Positions 39,946 to 52,229 of a stretch of DNA of 64,000 nt are shown here, piece after piece (the first letter of the stretch is position 1; each line of letters begins with the position of its first letter). The position numbers and the translations under genes are program-made. This DNA comes from Lacrimispora xylanolytica (GTDB lineage: Bacteria > Bacillota > Clostridia > Lachnospirales > Lachnospiraceae). The notes beneath the pieces were generated by a model that made no database searches, was not told the origin of the DNA, and saw only the letters and a program-made list of their open reading frames with translations. The stretch spans positions 806,001 to 870,000 of the forward strand of contig NZ_CP113524.1 of the NCBI RefSeq assembly GCF_026723765.1, given 5' to 3'.

Positions 39946-41571
39946 ATGGAAAAAATTAAGGAATTTATAAACGGTCTTAGCAGTAAGACAAAGAAGATTG
40001 CAATAGCCTCAATCGTAGGCGTATTGGTTGTGGCCGGATCAGTGATCCTGGCATTGTCCATGAGAGCTAAGCCTTTTGAAGTAATGTTTACAGGCATTGG
40101 CAACGAGGAAGCCAAGCAGATTATAGGTAAACTGCAAGAGGATGGGGTTTCTTATCAATATGAAAACGGAGATATTCTGGTACCGGTAGAGCAGATGGAC
40201 GTGACCAGAGCCAAGCTGGTTTCAGAAGGGTATCCCAAAAGTGGATTTACATACGATGTATTTAAAAATAATGTTAACTTAATGACTACAGATTCCGATC
40301 GTAAGACCTTTAAGCTTTACGATCTGGAGACCAGAATTGGTTCAACCATTCAGCTTTTTGATGGTGTAAAAGAAGCATATGTAACGATAGCCCTGGGAGA
40401 GACTTCCAAGTATGCGCTGTCTGAGGATAGTGCTAAGGAAGCGAGCGCCCAGGCTGTTGTTGTGATGAAAGACGGCGGATCACCTTCCGAGGAGCAGGCA
40501 AAATCCATTCAGCTTCTTATTTCCAGAAGTATCCCTGGAATGGTCATTGACAATGTTTCTGTCTTTGACGGGAACGGCAGAGAGATTACCGTAGATTCCG
40601 AAGAAGAGGATATTAATACAGGAAAAGCAAGCGAGGAAATTGCTAAAGTAATTGAAGACCAGATTTCAGCCAAGGTAATCAATGTGCTGGGACCGGTATA
40701 CGGCAACGGAAACGTAAAGGTTTCCGCTAAATGTACGGTCAATATGGATAAATTAATCCGTGAGAGCATTGTATATAATACTCCGGATAAGATTGACGAG
40801 AAGGACAAAACAGGTATTATTTCAGAAGAGTCCATTAACAGAGAATTCTCCGGAGATAAGCAGACAGCATCTGGCGTTGCCGGATCAGAAGCAAATGCTG
40901 ATATACCGGAATATAATGCAGCAGGAACAGGAACCGGCGGAGATGGTTCCTACGCTTCCAGTGGTCTAAACAGAAAGTACCTCATTAATCAGATTAAGGA
41001 GCAGGGACAGATAAATCCCGGAAGTCTTGAAAATCTTACAGTTTCCGTAGTTGTGAATGGGACTGATTTTGGTACGCTGACAGTGGATGATATCCGTAAT
41101 CTGGCTGGTAATGCAGCAGGAATTGCCCAGGCGGACAGAGCGGAGAAAATCACTGCAGTCGCTGCACCGTTCTATACGGTTGATGTACCAAAACAGCCGG
41201 AAACATCAGAAGTAGCAGGGGCTAAGGGTATGATTGTGAATCAGTGGATACTGATTGCGGCTGCAGTCGGTGTGTTATTGCTTGTATTGATCGTCATATT
41301 GGCAATTAGAAGGGCAAACAAAAAGAAAGCCATGATTGTTGAAACAGAGGACAGTCAGGAGGATGTTCCAGTGATTCCCGACATACCAGAAGTGGAAGAA
41401 GAAACAGTGGAAGAAGAAGTGGAACCGGTTGAACCTGAGATTTTCGTTCCGGAAGTGGATCGGGGCGCAGAACTGCGTGAAAGCATCCGTGAGTTTGCAG
41501 ACCAAAATCCTGAGATTTCGGCCCAGTTGCTGAAAGCATGGTTGAACGGAGGAGACAATAATGACAACTAG
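39946..41571 (+). CDS. fliF: flagellar MS-ring protein FliF
   Basis: Forms the membrane ring on which rod and switch assemble. The 541-residue protein has TM1 near residues 18-38, ring-building motifs (GYPKSGFTYDVF, LYDLETRIGSTI, AYVTIALGETS), TM2 near 430-452 and a very acidic cytoplasmic segment (about 460-510). It ends in FADQNPEISAQLLKAWLN, the FliG-binding peptide. Length is usual. It overlaps fliG by 11 bases, consistent with coupled synthesis of partner proteins. Confidence 0.95.
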   Translation: MEKIKEFINGLSSKTKKIAIASIVGVLVVAGSVILALSMRAKPFEVMFTGIGNEEAKQIIGKLQEDGVSYQYENGDILVPVEQMDVTRAKLVSEGYPKSGFTYDVFKNNVNLMTTDSDRKTFKLYDLETRIGSTIQLFDGVKEAYVTIALGETSKYALSEDSAKEASAQAVVVMKDGGSPSEEQAKSIQLLISRSIPGMVIDNVSVFDGNGREITVDSEEEDINTGKASEEIAKVIEDQISAKVINVLGPVYGNGNVKVSAKCTVNMDKLIRESIVYNTPDKIDEKDKTGIISEESINREFSGDKQTASGVAGSEANADIPEYNAAGTGTGGDGSYASSGLNRKYLINQIKEQGQINPGSLENLTVSVVVNGTDFGTLTVDDIRNLAGNAAGIAQADRAEKITAVAAPFYTVDVPKQPETSEVAGAKGMIVNQWILIAAAVGVLLLVLIVILAIRRANKKKAMIVETEDSQEDVPVIPDIPEVEEETVEEEVEPVEPEIFVPEVDRGAELRESIREFADQNPEISAQLLKAWLNGGDNNDN

Positions 41572-42565
41572 TCTGAGACCAGAACAAAAAGCGGCAACTG
41601 TTATTGTTTCGCTCGGAGTAGAGAAAGCGTCAAAAATATATAAATATCTTACGGAAGAGGAAATTGAAAAGCTTACAGTCGAAGTGGCAAAACTGGGACA
41701 TGTAGAAGCTAAGGCCACAGAAGAAGTGCTGGATGATTTCTATAAGACCTGTCTGACTCAGAAGGTCGTGACCGATGGTGGTCTTGAATATGCCAGAACC
41801 GTATTAGAGAAAGCATTTGGTGAAAGCACAGCAAGCAACCTCCTCCAAAAGGTGACACAGTCACTGAAATCCAGATCCTTTGGATTTATCAGAAAAAGTG
41901 ATTCTAAGAATCTGTTTTCTATCCTGCAGCATGAGAGACCTCAGACCATTGCTTTGGTGCTTTCCTATACCACAGAGGATATGACAGCAGAGCTTATTTC
42001 AGAGCTGCCTCCTGAGAAGAGATTTAAAGTAGTAGAGGCCATAGCCCGAATGGAGAGTGCTTCTCCCGATGGCATTAAGATTGTGGAAGATGAGATCAAA
42101 AGGAAGTTCTCCGGTATCATTACCACCGATTACACAACGGTGGGCGGTATCGATTACATTGCAAACGTAATGAACCGTATGGACCGTGGAAACGAAAAGC
42201 TTATCTTCGAAGAGCTGGGAAAAAAGGATTCCGATCTGGCAGATACCATCCGCAAGAAGATGTTCGTATTCGAGGATATCGTTACTATGGACAATCGTTC
42301 CATTCAGCGTTTCATTCGCGAGTGCGATATGAAGGATATGGTTTATGCTCTTAAAGGAACCAATGAGCAGATTTCTGAATCTATCTTTGCTAATATGTCC
42401 AGCCGTATGAGAGAAAGTATTATGTCTGATATGGAAGTTACCGTTAATGTTCGTGTGAAGGATGTACAGGAAGCTCAGCAGAGAATCGTTGCTACCATCA
42501 GACGTCTGGAAGAAGAAGGCGAGCTGATTATCAGCAAGGGTGGAAAGGATGATATCATTGCCTAA
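41561..42565 (+). CDS. fliG: flagellar motor switch protein FliG
   Basis: Rotor protein that contacts FliF, FliM and the stator. The 334-residue protein has the N-terminal domain (AATVIVSLGVEKASKIYKYL), the middle domain with ERPQTIALVLSY and the EHPQ-like motif, and the C-terminal torque domain (FVFEDIVTMDNRSIQRFIRE) with alternating charges. It overlaps fliF upstream and fliH downstream. Given the altered MotB downstream, its intact stator-contact helix shows the rotor side is not obviously decayed. Confidence 0.96.
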   Translation: MTTSLRPEQKAATVIVSLGVEKASKIYKYLTEEEIEKLTVEVAKLGHVEAKATEEVLDDFYKTCLTQKVVTDGGLEYARTVLEKAFGESTASNLLQKVTQSLKSRSFGFIRKSDSKNLFSILQHERPQTIALVLSYTTEDMTAELISELPPEKRFKVVEAIARMESASPDGIKIVEDEIKRKFSGIITTDYTTVGGIDYIANVMNRMDRGNEKLIFEELGKKDSDLADTIRKKMFVFEDIVTMDNRSIQRFIRECDMKDMVYALKGTNEQISESIFANMSSRMRESIMSDMEVTVNVRVKDVQEAQQRIVATIRRLEEEGELIISKGGKDDIIA

Positions 42566-49559: not shown

Positions 49560-50369
49560 ATGGATGTATCTTTGATAGTGGGGTGGATACTGGGAGCTGT
49601 CTTAATTGTCTTAGGAATAGGGACAGATAAAGTGGCAAATTTTATACATATCCCCAGTGTGATCATCGTTATCGGAGGAACAGCGGCAGCACTTATCGCC
49701 AGTTATCCATTTCGAATGCTTGCCCAGATTCCCAAACACATTGGAATCATGTTTGGAGCTCAGAAATACAATGCTGGCGAAGTTATTTACAAGTTTGCAG
49801 ACATGGCACAGACTGCCAGAAAAAGAGGACTTCTTATTTTAGAAGAACAGGCAGGGTCTATACGTGATCCTTTTTTAAAGCAAAGTGTCATGCTCATTGT
49901 AGATGCAGTGGATGCGGAGCGAATCAGGGAAATCCTGGAAGGTGAAGTAAACGCATTGATTGACCGCCATGAACAGCAGATCAGTATCTTTGAGAGGTGT
50001 ACCTCACTGGCACCGGCATTTGGTCTTGTAGGAACACTGGTAGGTCTCGTAAACATGCTGAAGGGACTTAATGTAGAGCAAGGTGCAGGAGGCATTGGGG
50101 CAGATATGTCCACAGCATTGCTGTCCACATTTTATGGTTGTATCCTGGCCCATATGCTTTTTGCACCAATGGCAAAAAAGCTTCGTATCCGCAATGAGGA
50201 AGAGGTTCTTTATAAGCAGATCATTATAGAAGGTGTTTTATCAATACAAGCCGGAGATAATCCCAAATTTTTGGTGGAGAAGCTTTTCTCTTATTTGTCC
50301 CAGGACCAGCAGAAAAAATATATGAAACATGGTAGTATCGGGACAGACGACACAGGTGCTGTTTCATAG
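49560..50369 (+). CDS. motA: flagellar motor stator protein MotA
   Basis: Membrane stator subunit that couples ion flow to torque. The 269-residue protein has four hydrophobic segments (near 5-25, 33-52, 155-175 and 188-205). It keeps both conserved prolines, in LAPAFGLVGTLVGLVNMLKG and in MLFAPMAKKL, and a cytoplasmic loop with charged residues that contact FliG. Nothing in it appears degraded, which makes the altered MotB next to it more noteworthy. AGGTT and GGGAGG precede the ATG. Confidence 0.94.
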   Translation: MDVSLIVGWILGAVLIVLGIGTDKVANFIHIPSVIIVIGGTAAALIASYPFRMLAQIPKHIGIMFGAQKYNAGEVIYKFADMAQTARKRGLLILEEQAGSIRDPFLKQSVMLIVDAVDAERIREILEGEVNALIDRHEQQISIFERCTSLAPAFGLVGTLVGLVNMLKGLNVEQGAGGIGADMSTALLSTFYGCILAHMLFAPMAKKLRIRNEEEVLYKQIIIEGVLSIQAGDNPKFLVEKLFSYLSQDQQKKYMKHGSIGTDDTGAVS

Positions 50370-50408: not shown

Positions 50409-51191
50409 ATGATAAAGAAGGACAGGAAACAGGAAGAGCCTGGGGGATGGCTGGATACATATGGCGGTATTGTTACTCTGCTTTTATGTTTTTTTATCCT
50501 TTTATATTCTGTTTCTTACATTGACCAAAGTAAGTGGAAGATACTTGTGGGGAATGTAAACCCGGACGCAGCCGTAGGAGAGGGACAGGAAACTCCTTCG
50601 GCAGGAGCGCAGGGTGAGCCCGCTTCTGATACAGCTTCAGAGGCTGGTACAATCGCAGATTTTGACCAGCTTTCCATCGTGTTAAAGCAGGTGATTGAAG
50701 AACGGAATCTGCAGGATTCTATAGAGATTACCCCAGGAGATGACTTCACATTTATAGCATTTCGTGATAGAGTATTTTTTGATGGTGACGGCTCGGTTCT
50801 TCGCCAGGAGGGGAAAGAACTGCTTGATCAGTTTGCTGGAGTGCTATCAAGGGCAAACGGAACGATTAAAGAAGTTAAGGTGTTGGGACACACTTCTCAG
50901 TTCAATCCGGAGCGGCCTAACAATATCCGAAGTGACAGGATGCTTTCTGCCCAGCGTTCCGCAGAATTGGTCATTTATCTACAGAGCAGGAATGCTGTTT
51001 CTCCGGAAAAACTGGTGAGTATGAGTTTTGGTCAGTTTCGTCCTATCGCACCACTTGACACAGAAGATGGGGGAGAGAGAAACCGCCGTGTGGAGATCCT
51101 GATTACTCAAAGCAACAAAGTGGAGAGATCCCTGGAGGAATATTACCGCCAGGTATATCATCAGAATCAGCAAGAAACGGACAACAAATAA
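50409..51191 (+). CDS. motB: flagellar motor stator protein MotB with atypical ion-binding site
   Basis: Stator subunit anchoring MotA to peptidoglycan. The 260-residue protein has one N-terminal TM helix (residues 20-38), a plug/linker region and a C-terminal OmpA-like peptidoglycan-binding domain (VLGHTSQFNPERPNNIRSD, GGERNRRVEILI). The TM motif reads WLDTYGGIVTLLLCFF. Family members have Asp at the second Gly (WxxxYxD), the essential ion-binding residue; here residue 20 is Gly (codon GGT, 50466-50468). An Asp at residue 16, one helical turn earlier, might substitute. A single A-to-G change from GAT would explain it. Confidence 0.92.
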   Translation: MIKKDRKQEEPGGWLDTYGGIVTLLLCFFILLYSVSYIDQSKWKILVGNVNPDAAVGEGQETPSAGAQGEPASDTASEAGTIADFDQLSIVLKQVIEERNLQDSIEITPGDDFTFIAFRDRVFFDGDGSVLRQEGKELLDQFAGVLSRANGTIKEVKVLGHTSQFNPERPNNIRSDRMLSAQRSAELVIYLQSRNAVSPEKLVSMSFGQFRPIAPLDTEDGGERNRRVEILITQSNKVERSLEEYYRQVYHQNQQETDNK

Positions 51192-51209
51192 AAAGCGGGA
51201 GTGAAACAG

Positions 51210-52229
51210 ATGGCTGAAGTATTATCCCAAAGTCAAATTGATGCACTGCTCAATTCCCTTCAGGGAGCAGATGAGCCGATCGATGAGATTGATAAAAAAG
51301 CAAATGATACAAAATACAGGAAGTATGACTTTTATAGTCCTAAAAAGTTTACCAAAGATAAACTGAAAATATTAAAGAGCATATTTGATAATTATTCCAG
51401 AATGGCTGGCTCTCAGATTAACGGTTTATTCCGCACATCAAGTGAATTGTCAGTCGTAACGGTTGAAGAGCAGCGGTATTATGAATTTGCCAATGCTCTC
51501 GGTGATAATGATGTACTTACCATCGTTAATGTAACGGTGCCAAATATTTCCCAGAGTCCGCCTCTTTTAATCAATGCCAGCATGAGCCTGATGTTAAGTC
51601 TTATTGACCGTATGCTTGGAGGTGTAGGGGAAGAAGCTGATATCGATGAATATTATACATATACAGAAATTGAGATGGCTCTTTACCGCAAGGTAATTCA
51701 ATACTTAATTGGAGCACTGAAGGATTCATGGTCCAGTTATATCAACCTTAATTTCGTGATGGACAGACTAGAAGAAAATCCAGGCATGTTTCAGGAAATT
51801 GGCGTTGATGAAACCATTGTCATTGTGGTGATCGATGTGGAATTAAAAGAATGTACCGGCAGATTGAATGTCTGCATTCCAGGATCATTGCTTATGAACA
51901 TATTCGAGATTATGGATAAGAAGAAACACAATGCACTGGGAGATGAGCTTAAGAGTCAGGATAACAGACAGGAAATCCTTAACAGCATTAAGAGTTCTGA
52001 TCTTTTGGTTCAGGCAAAAGTGGGAGATGCTGTTATCACTCTTGATGATATTTATAATCTTCATGTGGGCGATGTCATCAATCTGAATACTCCAAAGGAT
52101 TCGGATATTCAGCTTTATATAGAAAGCCAGCCGTGGTTTAAAGGCCAGTTGGGAGTTCATAAGCGGAATGTAGCTGTGCAGATTGATGATCTGATTGAAA
52201 CGGGAAATTACCAGGCCAGTGAAAACTGA
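51210..52229 (+). CDS. fliM: flagellar motor switch protein FliM
   Basis: C-ring protein that binds CheY-P. The 339-residue protein starts with the CheY-binding peptide LSQSQIDALLNSLQG. A CheC-like middle domain carries the GGVG motif in RMLGGVGEEADIDEY, and a C-terminal SpoA domain includes VGDVINLNTPKDS. ATG 51210 is favoured over GTG 51201 because of the spacing to GGGAG. It follows motB by 18 bases, with no fliL between. Confidence 0.95.
   Translation: MAEVLSQSQIDALLNSLQGADEPIDEIDKKANDTKYRKYDFYSPKKFTKDKLKILKSIFDNYSRMAGSQINGLFRTSSELSVVTVEEQRYYEFANALGDNDVLTIVNVTVPNISQSPPLLINASMSLMLSLIDRMLGGVGEEADIDEYYTYTEIEMALYRKVIQYLIGALKDSWSSYINLNFVMDRLEENPGMFQEIGVDETIVIVVIDVELKECTGRLNVCIPGSLLMNIFEIMDKKKHNALGDELKSQDNRQEILNSIKSSDLLVQAKVGDAVITLDDIYNLHVGDVINLNTPKDSDIQLYIESQPWFKGQLGVHKRNVAVQIDDLIETGNYQASEN

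Follow-up and report, generated by a model that had tools for sequence, protein, structure and literature searches.

A MotB without the ion-binding aspartate in the flagellar operon of a Lacrimispora clade, possibly kept as a passive stator subunit

The aspartate in the membrane helix of MotB is treated as indispensable for the flagellar motor, and its laboratory change to asparagine paralyses the motor. The window analysed here, a 64,000-nucleotide stretch of Lacrimispora xylanolytica DNA (contig NZ_CP113524.1, positions 806,001 to 870,000), contains a flagellar operon with glycine at this position of MotB, which raises the question of what such a stator unit can still do. A preliminary description of the DNA had reported the absence of the aspartate, residue 20 being encoded by GGT at 50466–50468, and this was borne out by the codon as read and by alignment. 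We propose that MotB lost the aspartate in the ancestor of a clade and, together with MotA, was likely kept as a passive, non-conducting unit, torque being supplied by two Asp-bearing MotAB pairs. To this explanation as a whole we give an even chance of being correct.

The motB gene (50409..51191, + strand) encodes a protein of 260 aa that starts with MIKKDRKQEEPGGWLDTYGGIVTLLLCFFILLYSVS. Pfam models assign a MotB_plug domain (PF13677, residues 3–49, 48 bits) and an OmpA domain (PF00691, residues 123–226, 42 bits), and the partner gene motA (49560..50369, + strand, 269 aa), adjacent upstream, matches MotA_ExbB (PF01618, 96 bits); all three matches are above the cut-off. By domain content and the adjacency of motA and motB, the pair is a flagellar MotAB stator by descent, but the aspartate of the B-subunit membrane helix that characterises an ion-driven stator is replaced by glycine. 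Codon 20 (50466..50468, + strand) falls in the column of the ion-binding Asp: in an alignment with solved chains, Asp stands here in MotB of Clostridium sporogenes (6ysf) and Bacillus subtilis (6ysl) and in one Vibrio PomB chain (8zyv), but Asn in another Vibrio chain, 8zyz. Codon 16 (50454..50456, + strand) is GAT, for an Asp that lies one turn of the helix closer to the cytoplasm. The wall-binding motif at MotB residues 161–164 (50889–50900) reads HTS, versus HTD in the aligned solved MotB/PomB relatives; all 11 aligned Asp-less MotB proteins have this Ser, which is also present in the Asp-bearing genome G003.

The remaining motor genes, described earlier as intact, are present with open frames. 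The fliM gene (51201..52229, + strand) lies directly 3′ of motB with no fliL in between. FliL usually helps stators. No FliL (PF03748) was found in the 25 genus genomes, and four control genomes gave matches. In two order-level relatives (L030 and L032), a candidate fliL-looking ORF is located downstream of motB. A helper role of FliL is likewise mentioned as possible in the available text of PMC10374538.

The MotB proteins of close relatives were aligned at the Asp column, a check proposed in the preliminary description. All genus genomes but one (24/25) contain the operon MotB; the exception is G005, 82% complete, where the only MotB found was of the S1 type described below. Asp is present in 18/24 and absent in 6/24. 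Among the six, Gly occurs in the window's genome, in G061 of the same species, in G021 and in G022, and Val occurs in G007 and G011. Clostridium sp. 12(A) (L034) has the same MotB as the window, residue for residue, and the MotB of [Clostridium] aerotolerans DSM 5434 (L035) shares 96% identity with it; codon 20 is GGT in both. The codon is GTT in L. algidixylanolytica (L036, the genome G007) and UBA7603 (L037, the genome G011) and GGA in G022. All 18 Asp-bearing genus genomes use GAC, so that the GAT to GGT change suggested earlier does not agree with the sister codon. The stator Asp has thus been lost naturally across a Lacrimispora clade comprising several species.

This distribution leaves practically no room for a mistake in sequencing or a laboratory strain with a paralysed motor, the other origin considered in the preliminary description. 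GGT is indeed one base away from an Asp codon. However, separately sequenced species also carry a non-acidic residue here, either Gly as in the window or Val, which rules out a read error. [Clostridium] aerotolerans is now named Lacrimispora aerotolerans, and a table in PMC13286285 gives its type strain, DSM 5434, as motile. Since this strain carries Gly, motility is recorded in a Gly carrier, for the strain and not per stator. The loss is common to related species, with Gly in some and Val in others, and a Gly carrier is listed as motile; a one-base strain mutation is therefore rejected along with a read error.

The search was extended to more distant proteins. Among the best 120 of 158 homologues found by protein search, Asp is present in 107 and absent from 12, and one is a fragment without the region; the replacing residues are Gly in five proteins, Val, His and Asn in two each and Tyr in one. 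A profile-based search (best 120 of 507) added 49 further proteins among the matches listed, all with Asp. A careful tree of 65 of the 120 homologues, built without columns 16 and 20, requires two changes for the 12 Asp-less proteins, and forcing them into a single clade was rejected (p-AU 0.014); the row of P0077 was dropped from one homologue comparison. The two changes can be read as two losses or as one loss and one regain in P0046 and P0048, Asp20 proteins nested in the Asp-less region of the tree and adjoining the His/Tyr group, where a regain of Asp is possible. In a limited search of the open-licence literature, no report of a natural Asp-less flagellar MotB was recognised.

It had also been suggested that Asp16 took over ion binding. 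A shifted site of this kind, formed by Asp16 or Glu16 in a stator that still conducts, appears improbable to us. Among the best 120 of 158 homologues, an acid is kept at column 16 in 11 of the 12 Asp-less proteins (Asp in five, Glu in six, Tyr in one). Glu16 is confined to these proteins (6/12 versus 0/107 in Asp20 proteins), requires three changes on the 65-row tree and is the best support for a moved site. Asp16, however, is no new gain, because it is ancestral in this MotB type and already present in 99/107 Asp20 proteins. The best evidence against a moved site is P0006, which has Tyr16 and Gly20 and therefore no acid at either column.

The ion-site residues of MotA bear on the same alternative. 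The PomA T158 and T186 columns (MotA T159 and T190) hold Thr in 22/22 aligned MotA proteins, in line with a site that still binds ions, while the PomA T185 column, another ion-site position, was changed in the clade that lost the Asp: it is Thr in 16/16 Asp-bearing genus MotA proteins (16 of 18, G004 and G023 being omitted with split frames) and Ala or Ser in 5/5 Asp-less ones. The residue (MotA 189) is Ser in the window and Ala in the other four aligned clade genomes. The PomA M155 column likewise differs, with Met in Asp-bearing genus MotA and Leu in Asp-less MotA (L156 in the window). In Vibrio, motility and ion flow are lost with either PomA T185A or PomB D24N, and T185A additionally disturbs complex formation (PMC6677748). 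According to PMC10374538, all sodium-driven units conserve T158, T185 and T186, and Ala occurs at the T185 column in proton-driven stators. Ala at this column also occurs in the two other stators of the genome, S1 and S2, and in Paenibacillus MotA1, so the T185-column change alone is not proof of ion death. With MotPS/PomAB units of the Na+ type, the operon pair shares the motA-motB gene order, the domains and Thr at the T158 and T186 columns, and MotP is the best NCBIfam model for the window MotA, with a score below the cut-off. It differs from them by the absence of the MotB Asp and of Thr at the T185 column, where Ser189 leaves the set of three Thr residues incomplete.

The surface facing the rotor is retained in MotA. 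Besides T159 and T190, the window MotA keeps P152, R87 and E95, and the last two are conserved in 22/22 aligned MotA proteins. We take R87 and E95 to be the columns of E. coli R90 and E98, as placed by spacing from the E. coli MotA sequence. The E. coli residues R90 and E98 are charged residues that contact FliG (PMC12505986), and on this assignment the FliG-contacting charges are present.

A search of the genome for a second stator pair, also proposed in the preliminary description, found two. The genome of the window, assembled as a single contig of 4.52 Mb with 99.89% completeness, encodes three MotA and three MotB proteins and a single FliG (two matches in one frame). The pairs S1 (C1:1543703) and S2 (C1:2250126) each consist of adjacent motA and motB genes, and both MotB proteins have the Asp. 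The best PDB match of S1 MotA is 6ysl of B. subtilis (E 7e-79), and the S1 MotB, unlike that of the operon, retains WLLPYSD including the Asp. S2 resembles the Paenibacillus sp. TCA20 MotA1B1 stator, the best PDB match of its MotA being 9lu9 (E 1e-39), and S2 also differs from the operon unit in retaining the Asp. The six genes scanned around the S1 pair (L067, 4363–15036) include those for glycosyltransferases and for a GGDEF, a DUF2334 and a putative adhesive protein, and none of the six was recognised as flagellar. L080, L081 and L082 (G008, G014 and G006) contain a fourth MotB-like protein; it carries the motif WQDSYSDLMTDLLAIFVILFAF, matches the MotB_plug model weakly and has a MotA-like match alongside.

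S1 and S2, both with Asp, are present in 5/5 near-complete Asp-less genomes; in G011, Asp-less and 67% complete, only the operon pair was found. Of the 18 Asp-bearing genomes, four have the operon MotB only, eight have two MotB proteins and six have three or four. Wherever the operon MotB is the sole MotB, the Asp is kept (4/4: G002, G010, G012 and G013). The link between Asp loss and extra stators is nevertheless weak, because both extra pairs also occur in 6/18 Asp-bearing genomes and the Asp-less genomes form one clade. The co-occurrence of three MotB types in each near-complete Asp-less genome would also allow the Asp-less MotB to pair with an Asp-bearing MotB of another stator, producing a motor with one ion site. 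Such mixed dimers seem very unlikely, given that the S1 and S2 MotB proteins are only 29% and 32% identical to the operon MotB and that each is encoded beside its own MotA.

With two further stators in the cell, the operon pair might be redundant and slowly decaying under relaxed selection, the Asp being an early casualty. We regard this as unlikely, though less so than the shifted site, and part of the evidence agrees with it. Median dN/dS values are descriptive, because genome pairs share ancestry, and for the whole motB gene they are 0.178 in the Asp-less group (8/10 pairs usable) versus 0.093 in the Asp-bearing group (134/153). By part, the medians are 0.387 (7/10 pairs) versus 0.203 in the linker and 0.147 (9/10 pairs) versus 0.055 in the wall-binding part. 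The vacated site is variable (G, V, H, N, Y), as relaxed selection would allow. The operon pair also looks interrupted in some Asp-bearing relatives that have other stators: motB of G003 (L018) is open for 193 codons, motA of G004 (L020) is split between two frames, 159 and 166 codons long, and motA of G023 (L013) is open for 223 codons, all three interruptions being possibly assembly errors.

MotA and the N-terminal and membrane part of MotB are under purifying selection. For motA, the median dN/dS is 0.038 in the five Asp-less genomes (6/10 pairs usable), so that constraint is no weaker than in the Asp-bearing ones (0.071, 40/120), and MotB residues 1–45, which include the membrane helix, give 0.072 (7/10 pairs) versus 0.102. 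No motA or motB copy is interrupted inside its domains in the six Asp-less genomes; the MotB of G021 (254 aa) stops six residues before the end of the window MotB, at the very C-terminus. MotA and the N-terminus and membrane helix of MotB are therefore firmly held, and the periplasmic part of MotB is looser. The operon pair does not appear to be simply decaying.

A further indication came from the changes fixed on the stem of the clade. For 21 flagellar-region genes in 18 genus genomes, five Asp-less and 13 Asp-bearing, the differences fixed between the two groups were compared with all parsimony changes; the per-gene comparison set comprised 20 of the 25 genus genomes and G036, and G004, G023 and G036 were left out of the burst counts. 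In the 18 other operon genes, 223 of 6699 changes (3.3%) are fixed on the stem. The share is raised in motA (42/305, p 1.1e-13), fliG (21/156, p 1.2e-7) and motB (30/367, p 1.7e-5); these p values assume independent changes and are uncorrected for 21 genes, but the three genes survive such a correction. The excess is marginal in fliK (p 0.007) and fliM (p 0.04), and the remaining genes are not significantly raised. In maximum-likelihood branch lengths on a fixed tree, in which the motA rows of G004 and G023 are fragments, motA, motB and fliG again rank highest. These three genes were jointly remodelled at the base of the clade.

The burst in fliG (41561..42565, + strand), the sole FliG gene found in the genome, thus falls on the same branch as those of the stator genes. 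A general acceleration of stators was rejected, as S1 MotA (7/200), S1 MotB (10/236) and S2 MotA (5/117) are all near the 3.3% baseline. S2 MotB is raised (18/198), with only seven Asp-bearing genomes in its set, so that fixed differences arise more easily. A rewiring of the FliG torque helix was also considered and rejected: the 21 fixed differences of FliG are scattered over the protein instead of being concentrated on that helix. The columns which we take to be those of E. coli R281 and D289, from an alignment by eye, are not among the 21.

Within the clade, the rates of motA and fliG are ordinary again after the burst on the stem, contrary to what relaxed selection would predict, whereas motB evolves faster (125/367, p 6e-11), as relaxed selection would have it. 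The dN/dS values and the stem and crown counts together disfavour plain decay, MotA and the MotB helix being retained, though motB as a whole is looser.

The acid was lost, yet both stator genes are under selection and changed together with FliG; the operon unit is therefore likely to be a passive part of the motor. From these patterns we infer both the loss of conduction and the passive role at the rotor. The operon MotAB would assemble as a MotA5:MotB2 ring, with its conserved charged residues docking to FliG and the OmpA-like domain of MotB anchoring it to the wall. As no ion would be bound or released, we propose that the unit either turns freely as an idler or holds the rotor as a brake. 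It may in this way tune the number of active stators engaged, torque coming presumably from the two other intact, Asp-bearing stators. A narrower version is offered tentatively and is, in our estimation, rather doubtful: a natural idler, that is, a 5:2 unit without an ion site, might mesh with FliG and turn passively, the rotor having co-evolved with it, and powered and unpowered units mixed in one ring might set torque or steady the C-ring.

The nearest known parallel to a passive unit comes from engineered stators. MotB with Asp changed to Asn partly assembles around the Borrelia motor without producing torque (PMC6663468). Laboratory Asp-to-Asn stators (MotB D32N/D24N, PomB D24N) likewise carry an uncharged residue at the ion site of an otherwise intact unit, and they lose torque (PMC6663468, PMC6677748). 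They are engineered, whereas the operon MotB is natural, is found in more than one species and varies together with MotA and FliG. Several features count against a passive role: the faster evolution of motB as a whole, as would be expected from weakening constraint; Glu16, which could be a moved carboxylate as it is seen only in Asp-less proteins; the Thr kept at the T158 and T186 columns and the Ala found at the T185 column of other stators; the scatter of the FliG changes; and the weak link between Asp loss and the extra pairs.

If the passive role is true, a lineage with a motile member that keeps an Asp-less operon stator, and in which rotor and stator changed jointly, would demonstrate that a stator unit can be useful even when it does not drive the rotor. 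The clade would then provide natural material for asking how a 5:2 unit without power acts on the rotor, and the ion-site and rotor-docking roles of the stator would become separable for study.
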